In this document: positions 3,738 through 39,738 of the stretch, one piece after another
Layout: each line of letters opens with the position of its first letter
How positions within the stretch are numbered: the first letter of the stretch is position 1
From: Saprospiraceae bacterium
GTDB taxonomy: Bacteria > Bacteroidota > Bacteroidia > Chitinophagales > Saprospiraceae
Direction of reading: 5' to 3'
Length of the DNA stretch: 45,812 nt
NCBI GenBank assembly: GCA_027486765.1
Contig: JAIXOO010000020.1
Location: forward strand, 1-45,812
Translations under genes and position numbers: made by a program
Notes under the pieces: model-generated
What the model was told of the DNA's origin: nothing
Database searches by the model: none
What the model saw: the letters and a program-made list of their open reading frames with translations, nothing else

Positions 3738-3805
3738 CCAGGGTTCGAAGTTCCAAAGTTCCAAGGTTCACTTAAACCCTGGAACTTTGGAACTTCGAAC
3801 CCTGG
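3738..3805. repeat. Long intergenic palindrome
   Basis: Arms 3738-3766 and 3778-3805 are near-perfect inverted copies of a sequence itself made of short near-repeats (GTTCGAAGTTCCAAAGTTCC). The loop is ~11 nt. It fills the gap between the sigma operon and the next gene. It has no strong T-run, so it could be a terminator-like RNA stem or a member of the palindromic repeats seen elsewhere in the window. Confidence 0.8.
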
Positions 3806-3818
3806 AACTTTTACAGAA

Positions 3819-5030: not shown

Positions 5031-5037
5031 ATTAACA

Positions 5038-13800: not shown

Positions 13801-14188
13801 TGGTCAGGTCTTCTGCCTTGATGGTACTGGTGGCATAACCCACTGCCTTTTGGGCCTTGCTCATACCCAAAGCCGTAACGACCGCTTCGTCCAATTGAGC
13901 AGCAGCTTCCAACATGACCACGTCCACTACGTTACGGCCATTGATCGGTTCTTCCAAAGTCTGAAATCCCGTAAAGGAAAAAACGAGTGTATTCGTCAAT
14001 GCAGTAGTAAGTGAAAATTCACCTTTTTCATCGGTTACTGTACCCGTTGAAGTACCTTTTACAAGTACGTAAGCGCCGGGTAGTGGCTCCTTGTCGGCTC
14101 CGGTTACCTTACCAGATACCTTTTGAGCGAAAGCGCTGTAGCTCACCGTGCATAAGAACACAAGAAGCAGAAGTAGGCTTTTTTTCAT
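10880..14188 (-). CDS. SusC/RagA-family TonB-linked outer-membrane transporter
   Basis: 1102 residues from the ATG at 14188, with a signal peptide (KKSLLLLLVFLCTVSYSAFA). After it comes a carboxypeptidase-regulatory-like domain (GKVTGADKEPLPGAYVLVKG), then the TonB plug (~120-240, with VNINIRGVNSITGRSQPLIV and SILKGASAAALYGSEAVNGV, the SusC/RagA signature), then a beta-barrel ending in an aromatic residue (MGVMIRASF). It imports a bulky substrate using TonB energy and forms the SusCD complex with the downstream SusD. The ROK regulator lies 57 bp upstream on the same strand and probably controls the locus. Confidence 0.95.
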   Translation of the reverse strand: MKKSLLLLLVFLCTVSYSAFAQKVSGKVTGADKEPLPGAYVLVKGTSTGTVTDEKGEFSLTTALTNTLVFSFTGFQTLEEPINGRNVVDVVMLEAAAQLDEAVVTALGMSKAQKAVGYATSTIKAEDLTNAGTPNLATALYGKAPGVRIAATPGGATSAVNINIRGVNSITGRSQPLIVLDGVPIRDGEVRNNDYWSDQRLRGNGLLDINPEDIDNISILKGASAAALYGSEAVNGVVLITTKSGKGKKGMNVDFNASYGVDNVAYLPRYQNIRGAGAPIHVNNGGQDAEGFIYYDTNGDGTKETRGILNYSINFGPKFDGKPIMGWDGIVRPYEAQEDNYGGLYQQGHTANVNVAVSQASENSNIRFSLTRQDNQGLSLNAGNQKNIANLNSTFRLGRKWSTDLMVNYINQKTENRPYSIDRMINNFTGMIGRFDNADWYLNKYQTSRGYRFVTGTGQSLTPGENIIYNGFKGDIADYVWRVNKNLLDETSNRVIASMTHHYQILPDLKFRGRISTDFTSDRIETRNYTERPLAFGNSGYFGLENNLYSILYGDALLTYTKRLSPNFELNVMGGYMATKDVATFVSRGTNGGLSTENLFDIAATINVANSGSSRSALVKDAYIGTINLDYKGFLFVEGTIRRDRTSTMNPENNSFIYPSVNTSFIFSEAFKLPEFISFGKLRGSYGVVGNYPDIYRANIAYNQGTLGVQAVGGSPVLYTNISSSFGNDVIRPEQKKEFEFGLETRFLKNRITFEASYYNAQIVDQILPLTLASTSGATSVLTNIGTLRNKGLELSLRGTVAKSTNLFWEIGVNYSSNKNVVEKLANGATELLHADYDGSAAQLRSVVGQPMGDFYVPPVATNSNGQQIVNANGLYQLDSRNWIKVGNAMPKAVGGFFSTLTFKGITLDAMADFRFGGHVMPTGINWMISRGLLEESTKFMDKESGGLSYYVSGGKGVQTTSDKGPNGEKVFNDGMLIPGVLANGEPNTNVISQAFYYWNTYNWGGPQYSSSRYELYVVKNSYIKMRELTLGYNLPKSMISKLGFSKLNLSVFGRNLFYFYRTIKDIDAEQLTSGSRWTQTVNNAGTNPSSRTMGVMIRASF

Positions 14189-14245
14189 TGAGTGCAAATT
14201 TAAGATGGTAATAAGTTAGAAAAATAACAACTGTTGCGTTGGCCC

Positions 14246-15460
14246 TTACAAGACTTGCTCGTAATTGGGGATCTCTATTTTTGTGGGTTTAAGTCGCTCA
14301 ATGTTCTCCATAACCAGTGCGGCGGCACCAATCATTTCGGCCTGATGGCCTAGTTCCGATACCTTGATCTCAGTGTTGTGAACAAGCCGGGGAATGCAGT
14401 ATTCTGTCAGTGCCTGTTGAATGGGGGCTTTCCAGATCCTCCCAGCCATCGCCCCACGACCGCTCAATACGATCAATTTGGGGTTGAGCAAATGAATCAG
14501 AATCGCTACCCCGCGCCCTACGATCAGGCCGATGTCCGAAAGCAGTTCTATTGCAAATTGATCACCCTCAAGAGCAGCCTGAATGATCATCTTATTGGCT
14601 TCTTCAGGTGCTTCTAAAGACACATTTTGCAAGCAGGAGATGCGGCCTGCCTGTAATCCTTTTTTGGCATTTTCGACGAGCACCAAAAGAGAAGTTTCCG
14701 TTTCCAGGCAGCCCTGTTTGCCGCAGCTACAGAGTTTATTGTTGTTAAAAAGCGGGATGTGGCTGAATTCGCCGGCAAAACCAATTTCACCCCGGTAAAG
14801 CGCTCCATCCAGGATCATGCCCAGGCCAACCCCCCATCCCATGTTGATGACCATGACGTTTTTTTCGGCAACGGCTGCACCAAACCTCAGTTCTGCCAAG
14901 GCAATCAAGCTGGAATCATTGTCGATAAAAACGGGAAAATCTAGTGCTTTGGAGATGTAATGGGTAATGCTTCTATTCGTCTTTAAAAAGGAATAATTGA
15001 TCCCCTTTTGCGCATCTACAAACCCCGGCATGGCAATGCCGATGCCAATGATTTTATCCCTGGGAACCAGGCTGTTTTGAACAAATGTATCAATGGCCTG
15101 GGTCAAAATATTTAAGGCATCGTCGTTCCCTTTCAAAGGCAGATCTACTTTCATCATCTCGCCGACGAACTCGTTGTGCATATTCAACAAGGCAATACGG
15201 GTGATGAGCTGATCCATGGAAACTGCAACGATGTAGTTGACATCTTCTCGAATCGAATACATCACAGGTCTTCTTCCACCGGTAGAAGCCGCCAGGCCGC
15301 TCTCTACTATTTTGTCTTCTTCAATTAACTCATTGACTAACTTGGTGATCAAGGGTAAACTCTTGTCCATCTTGTCGCATAAATCGGCGCAAGACAACGT
15401 GCGGGAGAAATAAAGCTCCCGGATTAAACCACGTTTGTTTTTGTCTTTTTTTACGGACAT
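14246..15460 (-). CDS. ROK-family transcriptional regulator (NagC/Mlc-like)
   Basis: 404 residues from the ATG at 15460 (the upstream in-frame TTG is less likely). An N-terminal winged helix-turn-helix (RGLIRELYFSRTLSCADL, PLITKLVNELIEED) is followed by a two-lobed ROK domain. Sugar/phosphate-binding loops include IGIGIAMPGFVDAQKG and the zinc motif CSCGKQGCLE. ROK repressors sense a sugar or sugar phosphate. Being immediately upstream of susC/susD on the same strand, it is likely the local regulator and may be co-transcribed. The effector sugar is not indicated. Confidence 0.92.
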   Translation of the reverse strand: MSVKKDKNKRGLIRELYFSRTLSCADLCDKMDKSLPLITKLVNELIEEDKIVESGLAASTGGRRPVMYSIREDVNYIVAVSMDQLITRIALLNMHNEFVGEMMKVDLPLKGNDDALNILTQAIDTFVQNSLVPRDKIIGIGIAMPGFVDAQKGINYSFLKTNRSITHYISKALDFPVFIDNDSSLIALAELRFGAAVAEKNVMVINMGWGVGLGMILDGALYRGEIGFAGEFSHIPLFNNNKLCSCGKQGCLETETSLLVLVENAKKGLQAGRISCLQNVSLEAPEEANKMIIQAALEGDQFAIELLSDIGLIVGRGVAILIHLLNPKLIVLSGRGAMAGRIWKAPIQQALTEYCIPRLVHNTEIKVSELGHQAEMIGAAALVMENIERLKPTKIEIPNYEQVL

Positions 15461-16440: not shown

Positions 16441-17238
16441 TCAATAAATCAAGGCCGTTTCAAATTCAAAATGGGAAGGTACACTGTCTGTGAATTGCTT
16501 AAAATCGCGCAACAAGTGCATGTGGTCATAGTAGCCACTTTGAAAAGCTATGTGCATCCAGCTAAGTTGAGGCTCTTTTTGCTTGATTTTCATAGCCATA
16601 TTGAAACGGATCAGGCGACTGTAAAACTTGGGCGATACTCCGATGCGAGGCAAGAAATTTCGTTCAAATTGGCGTGAACTCAAACAAGCCGCTTGAGCCA
16701 TTTGATCCAGCGTTTGAAGATGCCATTGACTGTGCTGAAAAACCTGATCGATGGGCTGTACCCCAATTTTTACCTGATTGACTTTTTTAAACAAATAATT
16801 TTCCGCAATGCCTACCATGGTTTTAAAATCTACAGCTTCTTCAATCCGTTCCTGGACTTCCTTGAAATCATTGCCCAAGACCACAGGGCCTTCTTCAGCA
16901 TTGCCCACAAACAGGGTCATCGGCGTACCAAACAATCGATAGAAGCCACCAGGTTGAAATAACACTTTGAACATCACGTAATCCTGCGGCAGAAAAAGTT
17001 TACTGCTAGCCGTACCTTGACCCATGACCATACTTGACTTGCCGTGCAGAATTTCACCCTGCGTAGTAAGGAGGTAGGGCTTTTCTCTTGGGTAGAAATA
17101 CAAACATTGCTCAGGTATGGGTGTAGCCGATAGAGGTGGAGGCTTTACCGTTTCCTTGTTTTGGAAGTGCAGAAACCAAAATGCTTTGACATAAGGTCGT
17201 AAGGCGGGGTGCGAGGGTACGATGGATAAGTGACTCAA
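16441..17238 (-). CDS. AraC-family transcriptional regulator
   Basis: 265 residues. The only start that keeps the conserved N-terminus (PSHPALRPYVKAFWFLHF) is a TTG at 17238; no in-frame ATG lies near it. The N-terminal ~150 residues form the cupin-like sensor seen in AraC proteins with DUF6597-type domains (MFKVLFQPGGFYRLFGTPM). The C-terminal AraC helix-turn-helix pair is at ~160-260 (LDQMAQAACLSSRQFERNF and WMHIAFQSGYYDHMHLLRDF). It is divergent from the cox operon across 302 bp and could regulate it, or only the membrane-protein gene downstream. Effector unknown. Confidence 0.88.
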   Translation of the reverse strand: MSHLSIVPSHPALRPYVKAFWFLHFQNKETVKPPPLSATPIPEQCLYFYPREKPYLLTTQGEILHGKSSMVMGQGTASSKLFLPQDYVMFKVLFQPGGFYRLFGTPMTLFVGNAEEGPVVLGNDFKEVQERIEEAVDFKTMVGIAENYLFKKVNQVKIGVQPIDQVFQHSQWHLQTLDQMAQAACLSSRQFERNFLPRIGVSPKFYSRLIRFNMAMKIKQKEPQLSWMHIAFQSGYYDHMHLLRDFKQFTDSVPSHFEFETALIY

Positions 17239-17540: not shown

Positions 17541-17990
17541 ATGACGCCACTACTGACGACCAACGTCAAATCTTGTGGGTGCAAGCGGCAGGAAAAGCAG
17601 CGCAAACGGCAACGCATGTCCTTCGTTTTGACACTACTTGTGGCCATTCTTCCCAAGTGTCCATTCTGTGCTTTTGGCTATTCCAGCGTGGTGGTGATGT
17701 GTAGCGGAGCCAAAATCCACAATTACCAGGCCAATACAATAGGTTTCATTTCCATTCTCCTGGCTTTTGCAGTTTTGATTTCCCTGTTTTGGAACTACCG
17801 TGGCAAAAAAACGTGGCTAGCGGTGGGCATCGCCATTTTGGGGATCATTCCGCTCGTTTACGCCCAACTTATTTCTGGCAATCCCTTGCAATATTTCCTT
17901 GGAACGGGTTTGATCCTTTTGGCGGTCTTGCTCAATGGCCGCTGGTACCATCGATTCTTCAAATCGCAAACAAATACTATCACCTTATAA
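17541..17990 (+). CDS. Cys-rich four-helix membrane protein at head of cox operon
   Basis: 149 residues. A short cytoplasmic N-terminus carries CGC and many basic residues (KSCGCKRQEKQRKRQR). Four transmembrane helices follow (SFVLTLLVAILPKCPFCAFG, IGFISILLAFAVLISLFW, WLAVGIAILGIIPLVYAQL, YFLGTGLILLAVLL). The first helix contains a CxxC pair (PKCPFCA) and a further Cys lies shortly after. It ends 14 bp before coxM and is probably co-transcribed. Paired cysteines in small membrane proteins often serve metal handling (MerC/MerT-like); a role in copper supply to CO dehydrogenase is conceivable but only inferred. Confidence 0.7.
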   Translation: MTPLLTTNVKSCGCKRQEKQRKRQRMSFVLTLLVAILPKCPFCAFGYSSVVVMCSGAKIHNYQANTIGFISILLAFAVLISLFWNYRGKKTWLAVGIAILGIIPLVYAQLISGNPLQYFLGTGLILLAVLLNGRWYHRFFKSQTNTITL

Positions 17991-18004
17991 ACGCATACAC
18001 CTAC

Positions 18005-18874
18005 ATGATTCCGCAAGCATTTCATTACGAAGCGCCCACAAACCTGGAAGGAGCCATTGCTTTGTTGCAAAAGTATGGTTCCGATGCCAAGATCATGTCT
18101 GGAGGGCACAGTCTCATCCCCATGATGAAACTGCGCCTGGCCACTCCAGAACACGTGATTGACATCAGTGGTATCCAGGGTCTGGAGTACATCCAGGAAG
18201 AGGGTGGCACCCTTAAAATTGGAGCACTCACCAAAGAAGTGGCGCTCGAAGAATCTTCGTTGATTCTCGAAAAGTATCCACTCATCGCCGATGCCACCAA
18301 AATGATTGCCGATCCTTCAGTGCGCAATCTGGCCACTGTAGGTGGTAACCTCGCTCACGGTGACTCCGCCAACGACCACCCGGCAGTGATGCTCGCTCTG
18401 CGAGCCACTGTGGTAGCCGCTGGCCCCAATGGCGACCGCGAAATTCCCATCGACGATTTTTTCCTGGGCTTTTTTACCACTGCCTTGGAAGCCGATGAAA
18501 TCCTCACCGAAATCCGCATTCCCATCCCTCCTGCCCAGAGCGGCGGTGCCTATTTGAAAATGGAGCGCAAAGTGGGCGATTATGCCACCGCAGCGGCTGC
18601 CGTTCAACTCAGCCTGGACGCAGCAGGAAAATGTGCCCAGATTGGCATCGGCCTTACCAATGTTAGTGCAGCTCCTATGCGTGCTACCCGCTCCGAAGAC
18701 TTGCTGCGCGGTCAGGTGCTCACCGAAGAATTGATCCAAGAAGCAGCCAAGATGGCGGCGCAGGATTGTGACCCCAACCCGGATTTGCGCGGGTCAATCG
18801 CCTACAAGCGTTCGATTGTGAAAACCTATACCGCAAGGGCTATTCACAAGGCATTAGAACGCGCAGGAGCCTAG
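18005..18874 (+). CDS. coxM: Aerobic CO dehydrogenase, FAD-binding medium subunit
   Basis: 289 residues from the ATG at 18005; an in-frame extension upstream overlaps the membrane-protein gene and is spurious. It shows the two FAD motifs of the molybdenum hydroxylase medium subunit: [13 protein letters not shown] (~33-45) and [18 protein letters not shown] (~111-128). CoxM accepts electrons from the 2Fe-2S subunit and passes them to the respiratory chain. It is the first structural gene of a collinear M-S-L set. Assignment to CO dehydrogenase rather than another Mo hydroxylase rests on the CoxL motif two genes downstream. Confidence 0.93.
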
Positions 18875-18899
18875 TTTTTCATCCTTAACTATTATTCTA

Positions 18900-19391
18900 A
18901 TGGCAAATATTACTATTCATATCAATGGGGTGCCACAAACACTGGATGTGGAACCTCGGCTACTTTTGGTGCACCTCATTCGCGAAAACCTCAACCTGAC
19001 TGGTACGCACGTAGGTTGTGATACTTCCAGCTGTGGAGCCTGCACCGTACTCATGGATGGGCGTTCGGTCAAGTCCTGTACTGTTTATGCGGTGCAAGCC
19101 AATGGCAAAGAAATCATGACCATCGAGGGCCTGGCCCAGGGCGGCCTACACCCTTTGCAAGAGGGGTTCAAAGAAGAACACGGCCTGCAGTGTGGTTTTT
19201 GTACACCCGGCATGATTATGCGTTGTGTCGATTTATTGGAGCGCAACCCAAACCCTACTGAGGAAGAAATCCGTTGGGGCATTTCGGGTAATCTCTGCCG
19301 CTGCACGGGCTACAACAACATCGTGAAAGCGGTAGAATACGCGGCAAAAAAAATGCAGGGAGCAGAAGTTCCTGCTGAAACAGTGGCTTAA
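18900..19391 (+). CDS. coxS: Aerobic CO dehydrogenase, iron-sulfur small subunit
   Basis: 163 residues, the usual size. All eight cluster cysteines are visible: the plant-ferredoxin-type cluster C40, C45, C48, C60 ([10 protein letters not shown] ... SC) and the helical proximal cluster C98, C101, C133, C135 (QCGFC and NLCRC). Electrons move from the Mo-Cu site in CoxL through both clusters to FAD in CoxM. It lies 25 bp after coxM and 27 bp before coxL. Confidence 0.96.
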
Positions 19392-19418
19392 GTTTTTAAT
19401 CCTCTAAATCGACAATTC

Positions 19419-21788
19419 ATGTTTTGCAATACATCCAAAGAAATCGGCGGCATGGGCCACGGTCTTAAACGTAAGGAAGATGCCCGCTTCATTCAGGGCA
19501 AAGGCCATTACGTTGACGACGTCAAACTGCCCGGCATGTTGTACATGGACATTGTACGCAGCCCCTACGCCTACGCAAAAATCCTCAACATTGACGCAAC
19601 CAAAGCCCTGGAAATCCCTGGTGTGTTGGCCGTCATTACCGGTCGCGACCTGGAGAAATACAACCTGCATTGGATGCCTACTCTGATGTCGGATACCCAG
19701 ATGGTGTTGCCCACCGACACCGTTATGTATTACGCTCAGGAAGTATGTGCGGTCATCGCCACTGAGCGCTACATTGCTGCCGATGGGGTAGCGGCGGTAG
19801 AAGTGGAGTACGAGCCAATGAAACCAGTGATGGATCCACATAAGGCACTGGATCCGGGAATGCCCGTGTTGCGCCCTGACAAAGGCAAAACCGACAACCA
19901 CATCTGGCACTGGGAAGCTGGCGACCGCGAGGCGACTGACAATCTTTTTGCCAATGCAGAAGTGGTGGTCAAAGAGCAGGTGTACATCCCCCGCATCCAC
20001 GTAGCCTCGATTGAGACTTGTGGTTGTGTGGCCGATTTTGACCCCATTGAGACCCACCTCACGATGTACATGACTACGCAAGCGCCACACGCCATCCGTA
20101 CGGTGATTGCTCTGGTGGCAGGGCACGTAGGGCTTTCTGAAGAAAAAATTCGGGTCATTGCCTCGGATATAGGGGGTGGTTTTGGTGGTAAAGTGCCCGT
20201 TTATCCCGGTTACGTGATTGCCATTGCCGCTTCGGTATTGATCGGCAAACCGGTGAAGTGGATCGAAGACCGCATGGAAAACCTGCAGGCCGATTCTTTC
20301 GCCCGGGATTACGACATGACTTGCGAATTGGCGGCTACCAAAGACGGCAAAATCCAGGGCTTGCGCATCAAAACCCTGGCTGACCACGGCTATACCGACG
20401 CTGCGGCCAACCCGTCCAAATACCCCGCTGGGATGTTTTCCATCTGTACTGGGTCGTACGACTACGGCATCGCCTTTACGGAGATGGATGCAGTATATAC
20501 CAACAAGCCCCCCGGCGGCGTAGCTTACCGTTGCTCTTTCCGCGTAACTGAAGCCGTGCATGCCATCGAACGCATGGTAGACCGCCTGGCGCTGGAAATC
20601 GGCAAAGATTCGGCCCAATTGCGCATGGAAAACTTCATCAAAAAGGAGCAATTTCCTTACCACTCTCCATTGGGTTGGGAATACGACAGCGGTGATTATG
20701 GACCTGCCCTACAAAAGGCAATGGACATCGTTGATTACGATGCGTTGCGCAAAGAACAAGCTGAAAAGCGTAAAAATGGTCAATTGATGGGCATCGGCAT
20801 CTGTAGCTTTACCGAAGTGGTTGGGGCAGGACCGTCCAAAGACTTTGATATTCTGGGCATCAAAATGTTCGACTCTGCCGAGATTCGGGTACACCCAACT
20901 GGCAAAGCCATCGCACGTTTTGGTACCAAATCCCAAGGCCAGGGTCACGAAACGACTTACGCCCAAATCATCGCCCAGGAATTGGGCATCCCCGCCGAGC
21001 ACATCCATATCGAAGAAGGGGATACAGATACTGCACCCTACGGCCTGGGTACTTACGCCAGCCGCAGCACACCTACTGCTGGTGCCGCCGCTGCGGTAGC
21101 TGCCCGCAAACTCCGCGACAAGGCCCGCAAAATTGCGGCTTATCTGCTCGAAGTGAGTGAGGAAGACCTGGAGTGGGAAGTAGGCAAGTTTTACGTAAAA
21201 GGAGCACCTGAAAAGTCAAAAACCATTCAGGAACTCGTGTTTGCCGCCTATACCAACCACCCACAAGGCATGGAAGCAGGCTTTGAAGCCACCCATTATT
21301 ACGATCCGCCCAATTTGACCTTCCCCTTTGGTTCGTACATCTGCGTAGTGGACATCGACCCTGAAACGGGCAGCATCAAAATCCGCCGCTTTGTGGCCAT
21401 CGACGATTGTGGCAACATCATCAATCCAATGATTGTAGAAGGCCAGATTCACGGTGGGTTAACCCAGGGCCTGGCACCGGCCATGTTTGAAGAGTTGATC
21501 TACGATGAAGACGGCAACATGCTCAACGGTTCCTTCATGGATTACCTGGTTCCAACGGCGGTCGAATCACCCAGCTGGGAAACGGGCCATACGATTACGC
21601 CTTGCCCACACCATCCAATTGGGGCCAAAGGGGTAGGGGAGTCGCCTACAGTTGGTGCGCCACCAGCGATTGCCAACGCCATCATCGACGCTTTGTCACA
21701 CCTCGGGGTCACCCACATCGATATTCCAATTACGCCCCAAAAGGTGTGGAATATTCTGGTGGAAAAAGGAGTGATTGAAGCTGTTTAA
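19419..21788 (+). CDS. coxL: Form I aerobic CO dehydrogenase, Mo-Cu large subunit
   Basis: 789 residues, the length of form I CoxL. The active-site loop reads A369-Y-R-C372-S-F-R375, the AYxCSFR signature that separates true (form I) CO dehydrogenases from form II and other Mo hydroxylases, which have AYRGAGR-type loops. C372 is the expected ligand of the copper atom in the S-Mo-Cu centre. Other conserved parts are the cofactor loop DIGGGFGGK (~250-258) and the catalytic-base loop GAKGVGES, with E741. The enzyme oxidises CO to CO2 at the inner face of the membrane. The neighbours coxM, S, D, E, F and G complete the system. A large reading frame on the opposite strand is a shadow. Confidence 0.96.
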   Translation: MFCNTSKEIGGMGHGLKRKEDARFIQGKGHYVDDVKLPGMLYMDIVRSPYAYAKILNIDATKALEIPGVLAVITGRDLEKYNLHWMPTLMSDTQMVLPTDTVMYYAQEVCAVIATERYIAADGVAAVEVEYEPMKPVMDPHKALDPGMPVLRPDKGKTDNHIWHWEAGDREATDNLFANAEVVVKEQVYIPRIHVASIETCGCVADFDPIETHLTMYMTTQAPHAIRTVIALVAGHVGLSEEKIRVIASDIGGGFGGKVPVYPGYVIAIAASVLIGKPVKWIEDRMENLQADSFARDYDMTCELAATKDGKIQGLRIKTLADHGYTDAAANPSKYPAGMFSICTGSYDYGIAFTEMDAVYTNKPPGGVAYRCSFRVTEAVHAIERMVDRLALEIGKDSAQLRMENFIKKEQFPYHSPLGWEYDSGDYGPALQKAMDIVDYDALRKEQAEKRKNGQLMGIGICSFTEVVGAGPSKDFDILGIKMFDSAEIRVHPTGKAIARFGTKSQGQGHETTYAQIIAQELGIPAEHIHIEEGDTDTAPYGLGTYASRSTPTAGAAAAVAARKLRDKARKIAAYLLEVSEEDLEWEVGKFYVKGAPEKSKTIQELVFAAYTNHPQGMEAGFEATHYYDPPNLTFPFGSYICVVDIDPETGSIKIRRFVAIDDCGNIINPMIVEGQIHGGLTQGLAPAMFEELIYDEDGNMLNGSFMDYLVPTAVESPSWETGHTITPCPHHPIGAKGVGESPTVGAPPAIANAIIDALSHLGVTHIDIPITPQKVWNILVEKGVIEAV

Positions 21789-21792
21789 ATAT

Positions 21793-21888
21793 TTCGGATT
21801 GAGGATTTCGGATTTCGGATACACATGGTTTTCAAGCCTGGAAACCACCGAAATCCGAAATCCGGAAATCCGAAATCCCGCAATCCGA
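21793..21888. repeat. Palindrome between coxL and coxD
   Basis: The left arm (21793-21820) and right arm (21851-21888) are inverted copies built from repeats of GGATTTC/GAAATCC. An inner small stem, GGTTTTC/GGAAACC, lies at 21827-21846. It separates the structural genes coxMSL from the accessory genes coxDEFG and could act as a partial terminator or RNA-stability element (inference). Confidence 0.75.
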
Positions 21889-21899
21889 ATCAAGTAATA

Positions 21900-22781
21900 A
21901 TGCATTCACCGATCCAAGACATCACCTCCCTCATGGCCGGTTTCGACCGCCTGGGTTACGTCATTGAAGAAGAACTGGCTACGGTAGTTTATTTGTCGCT
22001 GAAATTGGGCAAACCCATCCTGGTGGAAGGCAATCCGGGAATCGGCAAAACCGAGCTGGCCAACATGCTGGCGCGTTTGCTGGACACCCAATTGATTCGT
22101 TTGCAGTGCTACGAAGGTTTGGATGTCAACTCGGCAGTGTACGAATGGAATTACCAAAAGCAGCTCCTGGGCATCAAAATCCAGGAACACAGCGCCCTCA
22201 ATGAAGCAGAGAAGGAAAAAAACATCTTCAGCGAGGATTACCTCCTGAAGCGGCCCTTGTTGCAATCCATTTCGGCCAAGGATAAATCTCCCGTTTTGCT
22301 CATTGACGAAATTGATCGCACCGATGAGGAGTTCGAGGCGTTTTTATTGGAGTTGTTGTCGGAGTTTCAGATCACCATCCCGGAGCTGGGTACCATCAAG
22401 GCGCAGCACATTCCCTACGTCATCCTTACCTCCAATCGGACCCGTGAATTGAGCGATGCCCTCAAACGGCGCTGTTTGTATCACTGGGTAGATTATCCTT
22501 CGATGGAAAAGGAATTGGCCATTGTGTACAAACGTTTTCCGGAGATTGAGCAAAGGCTGGCCACCCAATTGGTGCATTTCATTCAAGCTTTGCGCCAAAA
22601 GAAATTGCAAAAAACGCCTGGTGTTTCTGAAACGCTCGATTGGGCGCTCAGCCTGATGACCCTAGGCTATCAAACGCTGGATGAACAAGCGGTAGCGCGT
22701 ACTTATGGGTGCATCCTGAAATCGACGGACGATATTCGCAGGTTGCAGGAAGAAGGGGTTGAATCCCTACTAATGGCTTAA
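21900..22781 (+). CDS. coxD: MoxR-type AAA+ ATPase of the cox cluster
   Basis: 293 residues from the ATG at 21900; a longer in-frame reading runs back through the palindrome and is spurious. Walker A is EGNPGIGKTE (~43-52), Walker B VLLIDEIDRTDEEF (~130-143), and a sensor-1 region is YVILTSNRTRELSDALKRRC. In carboxidotrophs CoxD acts with CoxE as a chaperone needed to insert sulfur and copper into the Mo-Cu site of CoxL. Gene order after coxL supports the same role. The next gene begins 6 bp downstream. Confidence 0.93.
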   Translation: MHSPIQDITSLMAGFDRLGYVIEEELATVVYLSLKLGKPILVEGNPGIGKTELANMLARLLDTQLIRLQCYEGLDVNSAVYEWNYQKQLLGIKIQEHSALNEAEKEKNIFSEDYLLKRPLLQSISAKDKSPVLLIDEIDRTDEEFEAFLLELLSEFQITIPELGTIKAQHIPYVILTSNRTRELSDALKRRCLYHWVDYPSMEKELAIVYKRFPEIEQRLATQLVHFIQALRQKKLQKTPGVSETLDWALSLMTLGYQTLDEQAVARTYGCILKSTDDIRRLQEEGVESLLMA

Positions 22782-22787
22782 TGAGCT

Positions 22788-23918
22788 ATGAATCAAGCAA
22801 CTTTTACCCGAACCATCATTGGCTTTGCCCAATTTGCCCGCAGCCGGGGACTCAACGTGGGAGTGGAGGAAACCTTCTCCGCCTTGCGCGCGATGGAGCT
22901 GGGTTTGTTTGTGGAAAAAGCCACTTTTTATTACGCACTCAAGGCCCTGTTTTGCTGCAATAAAGACCAATTGTCGCTGTTTGACCGCCTGTTTGGAATT
23001 TATTGGGAAACCAAAAGTGATGACCCCAAACGACAACAATCCCGGCATAAAATCACGGGACCCCAACATTTGCCCAAACAACCCGGTGTGCTGAGCGCCT
23101 GGGGTTTTGGGGATGGAGATAAAAAACAGGAAGAAGACAGCAAAACGGTAACTGGGGGGAACGCCACGGTTCGCTTGCGCAAAACCGATTTTTCCAAAGT
23201 AGCGGAAATGGATGCCAGTATTTTGGAAGAAATTGCCGAAAAACTCTGGCGCGAAATGAGCAAACGCCTCAAGCGACGGATGAAAAGGCGGCATACCCGC
23301 GAAACCATCGATCTACGCCGCACCATACGGGCCAGTTTACCCCACGGCGGCGAAGCCATTGAGTTGCGTTACCGGGGAAAAAAACCACGCAAAATGCGTT
23401 TGATCATCCTGCTCGATGTCAGTGGCTCGATGGACAAGTACAGCTTCTTTTTGCTGCGTTTTGTATGGGCTTTGCAAGCGTATTTTGAACAAGTGGAATC
23501 TTTTGTATTCAGCACCCACTTACGGCGCATTACGGAGGTTTTGAAAACCAATGGTTTGGAAAAAACGTTGTCCATGCTGACCACCCAGGCTGACAACTGG
23601 TCGAGTGGTACCAAAATCGGGGAATGCCTACGCGATTTCAACGAGCGTTTTGCACCCCAGATTTTAACTCGCTCCTCCCTGGTCATTGTGCTCAGCGACG
23701 GATTAGATACGGGTGAAAAAGGTATCCTGGAATCCGAGATTCAAAAAATTCGCCGCAAAACCCGGCGTTTGATCTGGCTAAACCCCCTCAAAGGCATGCG
23801 CGATTACGAACCCAGCGCCCGCGGCATGAGCGAAGCGCTGCCGTACATCGATCATTTTCATGCTGCGCACAATCTAGAGAGTATCTTGGAATTGGAGGAC
23901 TTGTTGTGCAGCATTTAA
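22788..23918 (+). CDS. coxE: VWA-domain protein, CoxD partner
   Basis: 376 residues. A helical N-terminal half with basic linkers (KRLKRRMKRRHTRETIDLRR) is followed by a VWA domain with the metal site ILLDVSGSMDKYSFFLL (~207-223), a Thr-bearing loop (WSSGTKIGECL), and a third loop VIVLSDGLDTGEKG. CoxE-type VWA proteins work with the MoxR ATPase CoxD in maturing CO dehydrogenase. It is cytoplasmic, tightly spaced with coxD (6 bp) and with the XdhC-like gene (10 bp). Confidence 0.92.
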   Translation: MNQATFTRTIIGFAQFARSRGLNVGVEETFSALRAMELGLFVEKATFYYALKALFCCNKDQLSLFDRLFGIYWETKSDDPKRQQSRHKITGPQHLPKQPGVLSAWGFGDGDKKQEEDSKTVTGGNATVRLRKTDFSKVAEMDASILEEIAEKLWREMSKRLKRRMKRRHTRETIDLRRTIRASLPHGGEAIELRYRGKKPRKMRLIILLDVSGSMDKYSFFLLRFVWALQAYFEQVESFVFSTHLRRITEVLKTNGLEKTLSMLTTQADNWSSGTKIGECLRDFNERFAPQILTRSSLVIVLSDGLDTGEKGILESEIQKIRRKTRRLIWLNPLKGMRDYEPSARGMSEALPYIDHFHAAHNLESILELEDLLCSI

Positions 23919-23928
23919 AATTAAAAAA

Positions 23929-24936
23929 ATGAGCAACGAAATTTACGAAATGGCTTCCGACCTCATCACCCAAGGGGAACCCTTCGCAACGGTGACGGTA
24001 GTGCGCAACGAAGCGCCCAGTTCCGGCAAAACTGGTGATAAAGCCATCGTCAATAAAACCGGAGTACTAAAAGGTTGGGTAGGCGGTGGCTGTGTGTACT
24101 CCATTGTACTCAAGGAAGTCACCGAAGCCCTGGACGACGGCAAGCCTCGTCTCGTGCGCGTGAGCCCCTCGCCCCAAAGTGACCCACCCCGTGGCGTCAA
24201 GGAATACAAAATGACCTGCTACAGCGGGGGTGAAGTGGACTTGTACATCGAACCCGTGATGCCCAAACCACATTTGGTCATCATCGGCAAATCCATCATT
24301 GGCCGCGCCCTGATGAAGGCCGCCAAAGGCATCGACTTCCGCCTCACCGTGATCAATGAGGAGGCCAACGCCGAAGTATTTCCTGAAGCGGATCAGCACC
24401 AAAGTAATTTTGACCTGGGTGGAATTCCCTTCAACAAACACACCTTCATCGTAGTGGCCACCCAGGGTGACAACGACGAGCGGGGCCTCCAAACCGCACT
24501 GAGCGTAAAATGCCGTTACGTGGGTTTCATTTGTAGCCGCAAAAAAAAGGACGCCGTTTTTACCAATCTGCTAAACATGGGCGTTAGCCAAGCACAATTG
24601 GACGAAGTACACGCTCCAACGGGTACCGACATCAACGCCAAAACCCCGCAAGAAGTGGCGATCAGCATTTTGGCGGAAATTATTCAGGAATACCGCACCA
24701 AAGAGGTATCTTTCGAATCCTTTTCGGCACCTCTTGCGGCTGCTAAAACCGAAGCAACCGAGGACCCGAAAAGGCCCCAAATTGTCACGAACCCTGTTTG
24801 TGGAATGCCCATTTCTCTGGGCATGGCCAAATACATTGTGGAACAAAACGGCGCACCGATTTACTTTTGCTGCGATGGCTGCAAGGTTAAATTTGATGCG
24901 GAACCGGAAAAATATTCAAAACAACTTAGCTTATGA
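23929..24936 (+). CDS. coxF: XdhC/CoxF-like Mo-cofactor maturation protein fused to a YHS domain
   Basis: 335 residues. The N-terminal XdhC/CoxI domain (~1-75) contains RNEAPSSGKTGDKAIV and GWVGGGCVYS. A Rossmann-type XdhC C-domain follows (~105-245: HLVIIGKSIIGRALMKAAKG ... YVGFICSRKK). Residues ~286-333 form a YHS domain: NPVCGMPISLGMAKYIVEQNG, then YFCCDGCKVKF with a cysteine trio. YHS domains bind heavy metals, including copper. XdhC proteins protect and sulfurate the molybdenum cofactor. In a copper-dependent Mo enzyme cluster, the fusion suggests coupled Mo-cofactor and copper handling (inference). The symbol follows gene order (between coxE and coxG); coxI is the alternative. Its stop overlaps coxG (ATGA). 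Confidence 0.85.
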   Translation: MSNEIYEMASDLITQGEPFATVTVVRNEAPSSGKTGDKAIVNKTGVLKGWVGGGCVYSIVLKEVTEALDDGKPRLVRVSPSPQSDPPRGVKEYKMTCYSGGEVDLYIEPVMPKPHLVIIGKSIIGRALMKAAKGIDFRLTVINEEANAEVFPEADQHQSNFDLGGIPFNKHTFIVVATQGDNDERGLQTALSVKCRYVGFICSRKKKDAVFTNLLNMGVSQAQLDEVHAPTGTDINAKTPQEVAISILAEIIQEYRTKEVSFESFSAPLAAAKTEATEDPKRPQIVTNPVCGMPISLGMAKYIVEQNGAPIYFCCDGCKVKFDAEPEKYSKQLSL

Positions 24937-25373
24937 CACTCAGCGGAACCTACACCGTAAACGCTCCTGCCCAAACCATTTGGGACATGATGATGGATCC
25001 AGAAATCCTGGCGCGCATTACCCCTGCGATCACCAAGCTGGAAAAAATCGATGACGAAAACTTCAAAGCCATCGCCGAAGTGAAAATCGGTCCGGTCGGC
25101 GGATCTTTTTCGGGGAACCTCAAAATGGTGGATAAAGTCCAACCTGAGTCCTTCAAACTGATCATTCAGCAAAACAGTAAAATTGGCAATGCCGCCGCGG
25201 AAGTCAACATGAACCTGAAAGCCCTTTCTGATACCCAAACTGAAGTGAGTTTCACGGGTGATGTGAAACTTTCGGGTATGCTCGCCACCATGGGGGGCCG
25301 GGTGATCACGCCAGTGGCTAACATGTTGTCGAAGCAGTTTTTTGAAGCGCTGGAGAAGGAGGTGAATGGGTAA
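24933..25373 (+). CDS. coxG: CoxG-family SRPBCC protein
   Basis: 146 residues with a START/SRPBCC fold: GTYTVNAPAQTIWDMMMDPE at the start, IGPVGGSFSGNLKMVDKVQP, and SFTGDVKLSGMLATMGGRVI toward the end, closing with QFFEALEKEV. This is the CoxG signature. CoxG has been linked to membrane recruitment and quinone handling by CO dehydrogenase. The protein stops after the SRPBCC fold; the C-terminal extension and membrane anchor of longer CoxG proteins are absent. It starts in an ATGA overlap with the previous gene and is the last gene of the operon. Confidence 0.92.
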   Translation: MTLSGTYTVNAPAQTIWDMMMDPEILARITPAITKLEKIDDENFKAIAEVKIGPVGGSFSGNLKMVDKVQPESFKLIIQQNSKIGNAAAEVNMNLKALSDTQTEVSFTGDVKLSGMLATMGGRVITPVANMLSKQFFEALEKEVNG

Positions 25374-25397
25374 GGAGAAATCCTGAACATGCTTGAA

Positions 25398-25450
25398 AAA
25401 CAATCGAGCGATTGAATGCTGTGGTGTTCAATCGCTCGATTGTTTTATTG
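25398..25450 (+). terminator. Terminator of the cox operon
   Basis: A perfect 19-bp stem (25398-25416 with 25427-25445, core CAATCGAGCGATTGAA), a 10-nt loop, and a following TTTTATT tract. It lies 24 bp after the coxG stop. Confidence 0.8.
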
Positions 25451-25466: not shown

Positions 25467-25730
25467 GTAAGCTCTAAAACCTGCGATCGTCGAGCCTGCT
25501 CGCGCAGCGAGCGTAAAAGGATCGACGAGTGCCCACGAAGTGGTGGGTAAAATGCTCGACCTTGCCGATGATAAAAAGCCCTTGCGCAGCAAGGCAATAT
25601 CTGATTCATCCCTGCTCAAAATAAGTGCCTCGCACTAAGTTGGACATCTTACCCACCACTCCGTGGGCGCTCGTCGATCCTAAAATGCTCGCTTGAGCAG
25701 GCTCGACGGTCGCAGTTTCCTAGAGCCTAC
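25467..25730. repeat. MITE-like inverted-repeat element, copy 1 (264 bp)
   Basis: Terminal inverted repeats begin GTAAGCTCT and end AGAGCCTAC. Subterminal blocks are inverted too: GATCGTCGAGCCTGCTCGCG on the left against GCAGGCTCGACGGTCGCAG on the right, and GTGGTGGGTAAAATGCTCGA against its mirror. A second copy lies at 33103-33453. It carries no ORF of its own. It fills most of the 469-bp gap between coxG and the first FGE gene. Confidence 0.8.
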
Positions 25731-25791
25731 CACTCATCCAATATTGTACCAAGGCCTTAAGCAAGGCAAGCATCTTGAGCCCAGCTCTTCC

Positions 25792-25842
25792 AAATTTTTA
25801 TTATTTTGCCTCCACACCTTAAAACTTTACAACACCAGCTCC
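25792..25842 (+). promoter_or_regulatory. Conserved leader of FGE-fold gene 1
   Basis: About 50 bp before the start is nearly identical to 26966-27016 before FGE gene 2 (CAAATTTTTATTATTTTGCC, then TCCACAC-TTAAAACTT). TTATTTTG at 25801-25808 matches the TAnnTTTG -7 consensus but for one base. No clear TTTG -33 box. Conservation between two otherwise diverged genes supports a promoter. Confidence 0.5.
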
Positions 25843-26703
25843 ATGACTACCACCATTACCCGCCGCCCAGTTACGCTCCCATCTGGCTTTACTTTTCACA
25901 TGCTGGAAGTAGCAGGAGGCCGCTTTATGATGATGAATAACGATAAAGTTCCCTTGGGCGATGAAACTATAATCCATGAGGTAAATGTGCCAAGTTTTTG
26001 GATGGCGGAATACCCCGCAACCCAGTCCTTGTGGTTAGACCTTATTGGCGGGGAAAATCCGTCCTATTTGGAGAGTGACTGTCGCCCGGTGGAACAGGTG
26101 AGTTGGTACGACGCAGCAGCTTTTTGTAATGCCTTGAATGTATTGTTTGGATACCCAGCGAAGTATTTTGTTGATGAAAAATGCAGCCAGGCCTTGGATA
26201 TCAAGCGTGCGCGCTCAGTTAAACATCTCGAAAGCATTTCCATATACGTTGCCACTATTCACTTTGGTTTTCGCCTGCCAAGCGAGGCGGAATGGGAATA
26301 CGCAGCACGAGGTGGAAAACGATCTGACGGACTACGTTATGCAGGCAGTAATGTATTGGATGAAGTAGGCTGGTATGCCGAAAATAGCCACGATCAAACC
26401 CAGCCCGTAGGGCTAAAAATGCCCAATGAATTGGGACTTTATGACCTGAGTGGAAATGTATTTGAATGGTGTGAGGATTATGCTTATACATTAATTGACA
26501 TCATTAAAAATGATGATGGTTCAACCCAAATCGAAGATGGAGATCCCTTTTGGCGTGTTCTTCGTGGTGGAAGTTATCTCAGTCCTGCGAATGTTCTTCT
26601 TTCCACTTACCATTATGGGTTCCCTATTTACACCCGGACACGTAATATGGGTTTTCGGGTGGTGCTGTTTACCCCTCACGGCAATTGGCCTGGTATCCAA
26701 TAA
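25843..26703 (+). CDS. FGE/SUMF1-fold (C-type-lectin-like) protein 1, no active variable region
   Basis: 286 residues from the ATG at 25843 (MTTTITRRPVTLPSGF, same start as paralogue 2). FGE-sulfatase fold motifs are clear: WMAEYPATQSLWLDLIGGENPS, EQVSWYDAAAFCNAL, RLPSEAEWEYAARGG (~144-158) and YDLSGNVFEWCED. The two catalytic cysteines of true formylglycine-generating enzymes are missing, so it is likely a binding protein. Its C-terminus (VLRGGSYLSPANVLLSTYHY ... RNMGFRVVLF) lacks the QxCRS scaffold shared by paralogues 2 and 3 and uses different codons. It therefore looks like a decayed or never-diversified member. No signal peptide. Confidence 0.85.
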   Translation: MTTTITRRPVTLPSGFTFHMLEVAGGRFMMMNNDKVPLGDETIIHEVNVPSFWMAEYPATQSLWLDLIGGENPSYLESDCRPVEQVSWYDAAAFCNALNVLFGYPAKYFVDEKCSQALDIKRARSVKHLESISIYVATIHFGFRLPSEAEWEYAARGGKRSDGLRYAGSNVLDEVGWYAENSHDQTQPVGLKMPNELGLYDLSGNVFEWCEDYAYTLIDIIKNDDGSTQIEDGDPFWRVLRGGSYLSPANVLLSTYHYGFPIYTRTRNMGFRVVLFTPHGNWPGIQ

Positions 26704-26708
26704 AGCCC

Positions 26709-26794
26709 GTGAGCAAAAAAAAGAAAAGAAAAGAAAGAAAAAGAGGAGGGGACAATGTGAGCCGCCCGCCGCCAGTCGTGCGAGGCACAAAATA
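26709..26794 (+). CDS. Small basic ORF 1 after FGE gene 1 (MSK...PPPVVRGT type)
   Basis: A GTG start 5 bp after the FGE stop gives about 28 residues: a Lys/Arg-rich run, then DNVSRPPPVVRGTK and a TAG. The same reading frame follows FGE genes 2 and 3, with the A/G-rich segment differing in length only by multiples of three (47, 23 and 44 nt from GAGC to CAATG). This suggests translation of a small basic, Pro-containing peptide. It may instead be a non-coding 3' repeat. No known family recognised. Confidence 0.4.
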
Positions 26795-27016
26795 GAGTGT
26801 GGGTGTGATCGTGTGGGTGTGTTGGAGTAACCCTGTGTGCTTGCTCTATGTTGAGCAACTTCAATATAAGCGGAAAACCTTACCTAGTGCCTCAACCGGT
26901 GAATAATATCTAGCGTTCGCTGAACATTGTAACAGGGAAAGCAAAGCGCTCAGGCCTACCAAAGCCAAATTTTTATTATTTTGCCTCCACACTTTAAAAC
27001 TTCCAACACCAGCAAC
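26795..27016. other. Gap between FGE genes 1 and 2
   Basis: 222 bp. The first ~40 bp (GAGTGTGGGTGTGATCG-like) is repeated after FGE gene 2 at 27959-27997. The last ~50 bp (26966-27016) is the conserved leader with TTATTTTGCC (-7-like box at 26974-26983), as before FGE gene 1. Nothing else recognised. Confidence 0.5.
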
Positions 27017-27883
27017 ATGACCAGCACTATCACTCGCCGCCCGGTAACGCTCCCTTCTGGCTTTACCTTTCATATGGTGGAGGTAGTAGGCGGCAGTTTT
27101 ATGATGGGGAATGATGACGAAGATGCTTATGACTTTGAAGAAATCATCCACGAAGTAAAGGTGCCTGACTTTTGGATGGCCGAATACCCTACTACCCAAG
27201 ACTTGTGGCTCGAAGTTATGGGTGGAGATAACCCTTCCCATTTCCAGGGCGCCCGTCGCCCGGTGGAACAGGTGAGCTGGTATGATACTGCAGCCTGTTG
27301 TAATACCTTGAATACATTATGTGGGTATAAGGCTAGATATTTTGTTGATGAAAAATGCAGCCATGCTTTGGATATCGAGCATGCTCATTTAGTTGATTAT
27401 CCCGAAAGTATTTCTATTCACGTCCCTACTAATCACTATGGATTTCGCTTGCCTAGCGAGGCTGAATGGGAATACGCCGCTTCGACTTCGCTAGGCGACC
27501 AGGCTTTGATTCCACTCAGCAAGTTGCTTTATGCTGGTGGCAATATCCTGGATGAACTAGGCTGGTACAAAGAAAACAGCCACGGCCAAACCCAGCCCGT
27601 TGGCTTAAAACTGCCCAATGAACGAGGACTCTACGATATGAGTGGCAATGTGTGGGAATGGTGCGAAGACCAATGGCACGATAGTTACGAAGGCGCTCCG
27701 GCGGATGGCTCGCCCTGGATAGATCAAGATGCGGGTGCTCTTCGGGTTATTCGCGGCGGTTGTTGGTACCGCATTGCACAGACCTGCCGCTCCTTGTCTC
27801 GTCTCTACTATCTACCAGCGAACCGCAACTACCACTACGGTTTTCGGTTGTTATTGTTTCCCCCTCCAGGCAGCTGGCCTTGA
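27017..27883 (+). CDS. FGE-fold (C-type-lectin-like) protein 2, candidate DGR variable protein
   Basis: 288 residues from the ATG at 27017. Fold motifs: WMAEYPTTQDLWLEVMGGDN, EQVSWYDTAACCNTL, RLPSEAEWEYAA (~145), NILDELGWYKENSHGQTQPV, YDMSGNVWEWCEDQW. The C-terminal block of codons 240-277 (27734-27847) runs LRVIRGGCWYRIAQTCRSLS through YHYGFRLLLF. Compared with gene 3, 17 codons in this block change the amino acid and only 3 change silently, while scaffold codons (CGC GGC GGT, TGG TAC, CAG, TGC CGC TCC, GGT TTT CGG) are identical. Outside the block the two genes differ freely at silent sites. This is the expected signature of DGR mutagenesis. Only one of the two formylglycine-enzyme cysteines aligns, so catalysis is unlikely. 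Confidence 0.88.
   Translation: MTSTITRRPVTLPSGFTFHMVEVVGGSFMMGNDDEDAYDFEEIIHEVKVPDFWMAEYPTTQDLWLEVMGGDNPSHFQGARRPVEQVSWYDTAACCNTLNTLCGYKARYFVDEKCSHALDIEHAHLVDYPESISIHVPTNHYGFRLPSEAEWEYAASTSLGDQALIPLSKLLYAGGNILDELGWYKENSHGQTQPVGLKLPNERGLYDMSGNVWEWCEDQWHDSYEGAPADGSPWIDQDAGALRVIRGGCWYRIAQTCRSLSRLYYLPANRNYHYGFRLLLFPPPGSWP
27734..27847 (+). repeat. Candidate DGR variable region (VR) of FGE-fold protein 2
   Basis: A 114-bp block aligned without gaps to 32197-32310, with 81 of 114 bases identical. The differences are concentrated in codon positions 1-2 of surface-loop codons; many variable codons end in C or T (ACC/TAC, AAC/TCC, AAC/GGC, TAC/AGC), as expected from AAC/AAT codons in an adenine-rich template. 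The 3' edge GGTTTTCGG continues with near-identical TTGTTTCC and would include the initiation of mutagenic homing site. No template repeat lies in the window. Confidence 0.7.
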
Positions 27884-27897
27884 ATTCAAATAAGCCC

Positions 27898-28062
27898 ATG
27901 AGCAAAAGAAAAAGAGACAATGGAAGCAGCCCGCCGCCAGTTGTGCGAAGTACAAAATTGAGTGTGGGTGATAGTATGGGTGTGTTGTGGAAACCCCAGG
28001 TAGATACCCTATACTATTTTCCCCCCAAGAACCATTGTTCATCGGTATCCATAAATATTTAA
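27898..28062 (+). CDS. Small basic ORF 2 after FGE gene 2
   Basis: ATG 14 bp after the FGE stop. It encodes MSKRKRDNGSSPPPVVRSTK, then a 34-residue extension that copies 1 and 3 do not share, 54 residues in all. The shared N-terminal part matches copies 1 and 3 with in-frame length changes. The extension (LSVGDSMGVLWKP...) may be accidental. The following gene starts 53 bp later. Confidence 0.4.
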   Translation: MSKRKRDNGSSPPPVVRSTKLSVGDSMGVLWKPQVDTLYYFPPKNHCSSVSINI

Positions 28063-28115
28063 CTTAGCAAATGCCAATAAGTAGCCAATTTTTTTAAACC
28101 TCAAGCCCAGCGCGA

Positions 28116-31034: not shown

Positions 31035-31050
31035 ATCAACAAGCCAAAAG

Positions 31051-31518
31051 ATGTACGGAAAAGAACAGGAAATTAGAACAATCAAGGCGCAACTGGATTT
31101 ACTGCTGGAAAAGAAAAGCCAGTTGAGTTTATCTGCCATTACCGCTTATGATGAAGAAAAGAAATTTGCCCTCAAGAAACAGATAAAAAGCCTGGAGGAG
31201 GATATTGCTACTTTGCGCCAACAGTTGCGGGAACTAGAGGAGTCTTCGTCTCAGTTGATCGCTACGTCCCAAGGCAATGAGGGGATAGATGCCATCCGTG
31301 CCCTCATAGCTACCGGGGAACTGAAAGCTGCGCTAGCCGCTTTGTTTGCGGCACTGAAAGGAGAAGACCGCAATACGATGCTACTATTGCAGTCCAGGAT
31401 CAATGCCCTGGAAAAAGAGATCAGCAATGACACCATTTCCAATAGTGACGCCAAACTCGAACGCGCCAAAATCACGAAAGCTGCATTGGATTTGTGCGAT
31501 CGCCTTAAAGAAGACTAG
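31051..31518 (+). CDS. Coiled-coil protein with EAD11-like (effector-associated) domain
   Basis: 155 residues, 16 bp after the Roco gene. Residues 1-70 form a coiled coil (IKAQLDLLLEKKSQLSLSAI, ALKKQIKSLEEDIATLRQQL) with clear similarity to the coiled coil of the Roco protein. Residues ~80-155 (IRALIATGELKAALAALFAA, then NTMLLLQSRINALEKEI and ITKAALDLCDRL) match the pattern of effector-associated domain 11, a small helical adaptor in bacterial conflict and signalling systems. It likely bridges the Roco switch to an effector or partner with a like domain. The EAD11 call is from memory of the motif. A DGR accessory (Avd) role was considered and not favoured. Confidence 0.65.
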   Translation: MYGKEQEIRTIKAQLDLLLEKKSQLSLSAITAYDEEKKFALKKQIKSLEEDIATLRQQLRELEESSSQLIATSQGNEGIDAIRALIATGELKAALAALFAALKGEDRNTMLLLQSRINALEKEISNDTISNSDAKLERAKITKAALDLCDRLKED

Positions 31519-31530
31519 AACCTTTAAGTT

Positions 31531-36242: not shown

Positions 36243-36531
36243 TTTGCACAAGTATAGACTTCAACTAAAAGTAGAGAGAAAACGTCGGCAATCCGCCAAA
36301 TGGTTCCCAGAAAACTCAGCTTCAACCATTGATGACGCCAATTTCCAAAGATAATTATGCTCAAAGGCTACACCTGTCATAAATCCCCCCTGTTTTTGAA
36401 CAATTTTCCCCCTATTATTCTGCTAGTGAGATCGGACTTTTGGGAGTGTACTTTGTGAGCGTACCAGCGTGTCGACGGACACTAATCAGATCACTGCAAA
36501 TACACTTACCAAATTGCTAATTCACTCACTT

Positions 36532-39735: not shown

Positions 39736-39738
39736 CGG

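Follow-up and report, generated by a model that had tools for sequence, protein, structure and literature searches.

A stretch of 45,812 nucleotides from a Saprospiraceae bacterium (contig JAIXOO010000020.1 of assembly GCA_027486765.1; the whole stretch is called the window here) carries the genes of a form I carbon monoxide dehydrogenase (CODH) together with two parts that point to copper. The maturation protein CoxF ends in a YHS domain, and a small gene for a cysteine-rich membrane protein (P0008) lies upstream of coxM. Both parts had been missed in the preliminary description of this DNA. CODH in the phylum was already known; the CoxF tail and the linked membrane family pointing to copper are the new part. 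We believe that a dedicated copper-delivery route for form I CODH is the best explanation overall, with a somewhat better than even chance of being right. If this is true, the copper parts help explain how CODH obtains its essential copper atom, and the upstream membrane family could be what supplies copper to cytosolic enzymes. Free copper is scarce in the cytosol.

The features of the cluster are given below, with lengths in amino acids (aa) and distances in base pairs (bp).

17541-17990, + strand: gene of the small cysteine-rich membrane protein (P0008, 149 aa), first gene of the putative operon, ending 14 bp before coxM.
18005-18874, + strand: coxM, flavin adenine dinucleotide (FAD) subunit, 289 aa; FAD_binding_5 and CO_deh_flav_C above the Pfam cut-off.
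18900-19391, + strand: coxS, iron-sulfur subunit, 163 aa; Fer2 and Fer2_2 above the cut-off; nine cysteines.
19419-21788, + strand: coxL, form I molybdenum-copper catalytic subunit, 789 aa; TIGR02416, AYRCSFR at 369, E741 and the tree.
21900-22781, + strand: coxD, AAA+ ATPase; AAA_5 and other AAA families above the cut-off.
22788-23918, + strand: coxE, VWA protein; VWA_CoxE at 201 bits, above the Pfam cut-off.
23929-24936, + strand: coxF, XdhC protein with a C-terminal YHS domain; XdhC_CoxI, XdhC_C and YHS above the cut-off.
24933-25373, + strand: coxG, short SRPBCC protein, 146 aa; COXG at 91.7 bits, above the cut-off.
25400-25443, + strand: terminator-like hairpin 3' of coxG, 20 stem pairs counted, the longest stem in the scan.

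Since the small gene lies 14 bp 5' of coxM and a long-stemmed hairpin follows coxG, positions 17541-25443 may be read as a single operon consisting of the small gene, coxM-S-L-D-E-F-G and the hairpin. The preliminary description had named seven cox genes in the canonical order M-S-L-D-E-F-G. All seven are intact open reading frames on the + strand at 18005-25373, and the domain searches agree with the names. The FAD motifs that it had reported for CoxM were found as GGHS at residue 33 and TVGGN at residue 111. It had counted eight cysteines in CoxS; nine were found (40, 45, 48, 60, 98, 101, 109, 133, 135), namely C109 and what we take to be the usual eight.

The enzyme is almost certainly a form I CODH. 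Loci for comparison came from a pattern scan of a species-genome collection, which gave 330 relatives, and the best 80 were kept. The loop A369-YRCSFR375 and E741, read earlier from CoxL, are present exactly as claimed and map on C388 and E763 of the Oligotropha enzyme. In addition, Q240 aligns with Oligotropha Q221, and the overall identity is 61%. The full AYxCSFR motif occurs in 98 of the 99 CoxL frames compared (>1000 bits, >700 aa), and the remaining frame reads SYRCSFR. CoxL scored 1250.9 bits against the NCBIfam equivalog TIGR02416 (cutoff 991.15). Its four best PDB sequences are CODH large chains (1061-1073 bits), and the next PDB family is quinoline 2-oxidoreductase (469 bits). A CoxL phylogeny, which had been proposed as a check, was built with IQ-TREE from 56 rows (48 form I including the window, and 8 form II). 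The window falls within form I, and the form I/form II split has support of 100/100. The motif, TIGR02416, the PDB matches and the tree thus all agree with the form I assignment.

Within form I, the window CoxL belongs to a 23-row clade (97/90), which is Bacteroidota except for L013. Two related CoxL rows stand outside this clade: that of L112, placed in the same phylum by kinship, and that of L027, from Rhodothermaceae. L013 is a 5.3-kilobase (kb) contig titled Thermoanaerobaculia; its CoxL is 89% identical to that of the window, and the small gene lies upstream. It is possibly mis-binned Saprospiraceae DNA.

The same genome holds a second CoxL-like enzyme (C241:114573-116939, L111), which is 41% identical and has the form II-type loop AYRGAGR. 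S and M genes adjoin it, and no coxD, coxE, coxF or coxG matches were found in the 12-kb stretch around it. This relative could favor the view that the window enzyme oxidises another substrate, as is thought for form II-type relatives. The AYRCSFR loop, the TIGR02416 score above cutoff and the form I clade (100/100) speak against that view, and we consider it most improbable.

The YHS domain of CoxF (PF04945) covers residues 286-331 (window 24784-24921) and scored 46 bits against a gathering cut-off of 30.3. In the AlphaFold2 model (predicted local distance difference test, pLDDT, 85; predicted template modelling score, pTM, 0.68), a low-confidence linker at 260-282 is followed by the strands and helices of the tail. 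The same domain fusion was observed in relatives. YHS was found in 59 of 60 preselected CoxF (at least 190 bits and at least 300 aa, a set that leaves out the tail-less alphaproteobacterial CoxF) and HMA in the remaining one. Counted by pattern, a wider set of 75 CoxF had 64 with YHS, 3 with HMA and 8 with neither; frames below 200 aa are omitted, and with them the two parts of the split CoxF of L049. The HMA-tailed genes are as follows.

L027, 6051-7079: HMA-tailed CoxF, by Pfam.
L112, 11922-13115: HMA-tailed CoxF, by motif.
L113, 13822-14844: HMA-tailed CoxF, by motif.

The eight CoxF with neither domain include four alphaproteobacteria with Oligotropha among them (L092, L100, L101, L104). 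The others are the second copies L076 and L079, L074, which is cut by the contig end, and L106, which has a degenerate YHS-like tail. Independent origins of the HMA tail were considered and set aside, since a tree of the CoxF core does not resolve the three HMA rows and a single origin is thus possible. The L083 coxL (3786-6152) and the L049 coxF (14002-14857) are each broken into two frames; the cause may be a sequencing error or true decay.

XdhC paralogues, counted with L105 left out, have neither YHS nor HMA in 42 of 42 cases; 38 of these belong to form I loci, and the other 4 adjoin three form II loci. All seven form II-type loops compared lack the copper-ligand cysteine, and the XdhC beside three such loci has no tail. 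In a sample of the order, XdhC matches reaching the profile end (322-324 of 326) were found in 9/9 form I genomes and in 0/239 others. Thirteen further genomes had XdhC matches, 12 of which end at 258-275 and one (G530) at 299. In the plasmid collection (215 records, 40 rows listed), the listed matches that extend to residue 329 come from 6 records; all 6 belong to the 19 with CoxL of at least 57% identity.

Residues C291, C314, C315 and C318 are invariant in 36/36 rows of an alignment made exclusively of YHS-tailed CoxF. The spacing N288-x2-C291...C314-x3-C318 matches the ligand pattern D-x2-C...C-x3-C suggested in the available text of PMC4626032. That text ascribes the copper activation of a mycobacterial adenylyl cyclase to its YHS domain; none of the six other ions tried there activated the enzyme. 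According to the accessible part of PMC4240915, CODH from Oligotropha coxE and coxF mutants is without copper. The 2014 model in the same part makes CoxF the copper donor, the binding motif being merely suspected, and calls for study at the protein level. We believe that the YHS tail is quite probably a copper module and that CoxF may act as copper donor through it. The metal domain on CoxF and its exchange for HMA, a heavy-metal domain unrelated to YHS, would then give independent support to the CoxF-donor model, as far as the available text of PMC4240915 presents it.

Several points weigh against a copper module. YHS/TRASH folds bind other metals too, such as cadmium in L24e (PMC4626032, as accessible). 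The XdhC match of G530, a genome without form I, has three internal stops and extends to 299, partly into the tail. The alphaproteobacterial CoxF (L092, L100, L101, L104) have no tail, so the YHS tail is not indispensable. The tail could also be a metal sensor or a structural metal site that regulates maturation and does not donate copper; a YHS domain on an enzyme does act as a probable copper sensor in the accessible text of PMC4626032. HMA in place of YHS in three CoxF suits transfer better, and the copper-free CODH of the Oligotropha coxF mutants (PMC4240915, in the part available) also argues against a sensor, which we regard as unlikely. Searches of the open-licence literature found no paper combining the YHS domain with XdhC, and for CO dehydrogenase with YHS only selenium reviews.

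The second part is the upstream protein P0008, whose family has a conserved PKCPFC...C motif. Residues K39, C40, C43, C54 and N132 are invariant in 42 sequences, and the N-terminal cysteine pair C12 and C14 is kept in at least 90% of them. A basic stretch ahead of the first hydrophobic segment points to an N-terminus in the cytosol. The AlphaFold2 model (pLDDT 75, pTM 0.57) has six helices, which would fit about four membrane spans. P0008 had no Pfam or NCBIfam match at E 0.01, and a PDB profile search gave one match at E 0.57. Against MerC (PF03203) it scored 13.1 bits, below the gathering cut-off of 27.6. Weak MerC matches occurred in 10 of the 42 relatives (best E 2e-5), and no other family matched more than one or two.

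The linkage to CODH genes was observed directly. A homologue lies 5' of coxM in 53 of the best 80 loci (39 within 250 bp and 14 at 1.2-1.7 kb); it is missing in 20 loci with at least 2.5 kb upstream, and 7 loci are truncated. Co-occurrence was also found in the samples. In the order sample, matches with E below 1e-40 occurred in 7/9 form I genomes vs 0/239 others (Fisher p 3.4e-12), each 5' of coxL on the same strand; three of the 239 genomes without form I had weak matches (E 6e-11 to 7e-8). In a sample of the phylum, matches with E below 1e-37 occurred in 3/8 form I genomes and 0/387 others, and three of the 387 had weak ones. In the three loci read in which 1.2-1.7 kb separate the small gene from coxM, the space between the two holds a propeller-like (BNR-repeat) gene:

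L018, 6178-7272: intervening gene, BNR-repeat by Pfam.
L032, 5887-7372: intervening genes, BNR-repeat by eye (as in L063), and also a ThiS-family gene.

The BNR-repeat and ThiS-family genes are possible further cox accessory genes.

We see an even chance that the upstream protein is a copper-handling membrane protein. Against this stand the weak fold model of P0008 and a PDB fold search that returned nothing convincing (best E 2.9). CPFC might just as well form a thiol-redox pair. The Fisher test makes no correction for shared ancestry. The gene is missing in 6 Bacteroidota loci and in all 14 other-group loci with at least 2.5 kb upstream, and it was not found in 2/9 form I genomes of the order sample (G435 and G588, in 16-kb stretches around coxL). 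It is also missing in 5/8 form I genomes of the phylum sample, which belong to two other families; two of these five loci were read (L112, L113) and have an HMA-tailed CoxF without the upstream gene. Few first-look candidates were scored per genome (at most 15, 9 or 8, depending on the search), so weak homologues may escape. In the open-licence literature, nothing relevant on MerC with copper transport or CO dehydrogenase was found among the matches listed.

Eleven relatives of P0008 outside cox loci were obtained from weak matches in the genome searches, and a tyrosinase gene adjoins 8 of them. Tyrosinases are copper enzymes. In seven loci (L125, L128, L130, L139, L140, L141, L142) the relative is next to the tyrosinase gene on the same strand; in L127 one gene lies between them, and the L127 protein is fused to SCO1/SenC. 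All four relatives not used as profile seeds (G939, G021, G653, G698) adjoin tyrosinase. In a sample of the class, 6/395 genomes had such a relative, with tyrosinase in 5 of the 6. Six aligned relatives keep PKCPxC. The tyrosinases of L125, L128, L130 and L139 begin without an export signal (by eye), like CODH. The membrane protein family may be read as serving copper enzymes, and it could be a general partner family of copper enzymes that has no entry in Pfam. Three points tell against this. The aligned relatives have no C54. No tyrosinase was found within the 8.5-9.5 kb read for L126 and L132 (one genus) and L129. L131, which is MerC-like by eye and has no tyrosinase match, was left out of the 11, and the count becomes 8/12 if it is included. 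A search of the open-licence literature for tyrosinase with copper chaperone and Bacteroidetes gave unrelated reviews only.

These relatives also bear on a plainer account, in which the operon is an ordinary form I CODH operon and the upstream protein is a membrane dock or a thiol-redox protein, for example one anchoring CODH or the short CoxG. The CoxG of the window has no C-terminal extension like that of Oligotropha CoxG, so it would benefit from a different anchor. Both CPFC and the N-terminal cysteine pair fit disulfide chemistry of the thioredoxin type, and SCO1/SenC, to which the L127 relative is fused, is itself a thioredoxin-fold family. Upstream protein and longer CoxG nevertheless coexist in most Bacteroidota loci compared, and the relatives are neighbours of tyrosinases, enzymes that depend on copper and have no need of a quinone dock. 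A dock or redox protein is rather unlikely in our opinion. A bolder extension of the copper route is that the small PKCPxC family is a dedicated copper delivery for cytosolic copper enzymes in Bacteroidota, with a CODH branch and a tyrosinase branch, and with the swappable YHS/HMA tail of CoxF as donor. We propose this only tentatively, as slightly less than an even bet.

The proposed route would work as follows. Cytosolic CoxLMS oxidises CO to CO2 in this enzyme family, and electrons would travel through the iron-sulfur clusters and FAD into the quinone pool, to which CoxG is the probable link. CO oxidation would give the heterotroph extra respiratory energy. CoxD, CoxE and CoxF would complete the active site. 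The small membrane protein would carry or hand over Cu(I) at the membrane via C54, C40/C43 and the N-terminal C12/C14. The YHS domain of CoxF, on its flexible linker, would take up Cu(I), and the XdhC core would place the copper on the sulfurated molybdenum site of CoxL. The metal identity, the topology, the direction of transfer and the order of the steps are what we infer.

The closest characterised system is the form I CODH of Oligotropha (Afipia) carboxidovorans pHCG3, which shares the order M-S-L-D-E-F-G and the active-site residues, with CoxL 61% identical. Unlike in the window, CoxF lacks a YHS tail there, CoxG is longer (205 aa, with a C-terminal extension), MHYT-domain genes flank its cluster, and its 22-kb locus has no match to the upstream gene. 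The megaplasmid CODH of Thermomicrobium roseum has a CoxL 71% identical and a YHS-tailed CoxF, but neither the upstream gene nor D, E or G was matched in an 18-kb stretch. The adenylyl cyclase of Mycobacterium phlei resembles CoxF in carrying a C-terminal YHS domain on an enzyme with the same cysteine spacing; in the available text of PMC4626032 it has an 8-residue linker and a sensor role, whereas CoxF is a maturation protein with a low-confidence linker of about 23 residues. MerC (PF03203) mercury-resistance proteins are, like P0008, small membrane proteins with cysteines, and give weak profile matches in 10/42 relatives. P0008 differs in scoring far under the curated cut-off, in its PKCPFC...C motif and in its linkage to copper enzymes.

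The preliminary description had implied that aerobic CO oxidation was new for Bacteroidota. This did not hold. Bacteroidota are among the phyla with form I coxL in Cordero et al. 2019 (PMC6794299, as far as its accessible text goes), so the presence of form I CODH in the phylum is not new. A 2026 marine survey places Bacteroidota in two mixed Mo-CODH clades (PMC13240472, in the part available). For CODH and coxL in Saprospiraceae, the open-licence literature gave a single paper, on a soda lake. By title, 63 of the best 80 of 330 loci are Bacteroidota members, one is Rhodothermaceae and 16 are other groups. Three strains of Flavihumibacter are among them (L024, L037, L042), each with a YHS-tailed CoxF and the upstream gene. 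Form I CoxL was found in 3/5 genomes of the genus (97-100% identity), in 9/248 genomes of the order sample (identity at least 81%) and in 8/395 genomes of the phylum sample (identity at least 78%).

Aerobic CO oxidation is likely an energy supplement, judging from the gene content. RuBisCO (PF00016) had 0 matches in the own genome, which is 99.98% complete, and matches in 5/14 control genomes. The lack of a RuBisCO match makes a carboxydovore lifestyle likely, that is, a heterotroph with CO as possible extra energy. Atmospheric CO had also been suggested as a source; we know of no sequence marker for its uptake, and affinity cannot be read from sequence. A molybdenum cytidylyltransferase match in the own genome reached 134 bits, under the 186-bit cutoff, and all 14 controls had matches to the family.

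A rival reading is that the cox cluster is silent or lies on a contaminating contig. The genome is in 514 contigs, and the guanine-plus-cytosine (GC) content of the cox stretch is 0.51 vs 0.46 on its left and 0.48 on its right. All frames are intact, though, and in a composition check for foreign origin the third-position GC of the cox genes (0.52-0.63) is not outstanding, being near the 0.59-0.64 of two SusC/D genes. CoxL with 97-98% identity is also present in two more genomes of the genus, in one case on an 8,371,686-base contig. A silent or contaminating cluster is therefore very improbable.

Some details of the operon were also recorded. The coxD start was set at the ATG at 21900, chosen from homologue length; the mechanical open reading frame begins at the ATG at 21825. 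CoxD scored 273 bits against the NCBIfam MadB_ATPase, under the cutoff of 475. The coxL-coxD gap (21789-21899) is made up mostly of short copies, some direct and some inverted, of a ATTTCGGAT-type unit. Among the Bacteroidota loci compared, coxG follows coxF only in the window, L012, L014 and L078; most of the others with coxG have it between L and D, with a longer protein. Short CoxG (149-154 aa) also occurs in Deinococcus, Aestuarium and Rhizobium, so the short CoxG is taken as ordinary variation. The hairpin scan overall gave 15 terminator-like sites vs 11.9 by chance, and a sigma-70 promoter scan found 6 vs 8.4 by chance. A divergent AraC-type gene (16441-17238) was considered as operon regulator and rejected, as no homologue (E 1e-10) was found in the cox loci compared, not even in the 98% identical L012, whose contig has about 1.9 kb before the small gene. 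The genes coxB, C, H and K had been described as absent; no MHYT domain was found among 28 window proteins run against Pfam, and no exhaustive search for the four genes was made.

The rest of the window holds other systems. Directly 3' of the cox operon, 25693-32334 carries three FGE-sulfatase-like (SUMF1) genes, an LRR-Roc-COR GTPase and a gene with effector-associated domain 11, and looks like a conflict or signalling cluster. A SusC/SusD pair and two surface glycan-binding proteins with xyloglucan-binding domains at 36469-44829 form a polysaccharide utilisation locus. At 3819-6138, an AAA ATPase gene comes after a DUF2201 (VWA-like) gene, and the two resemble a CoxD/CoxE-like pair in a different context.

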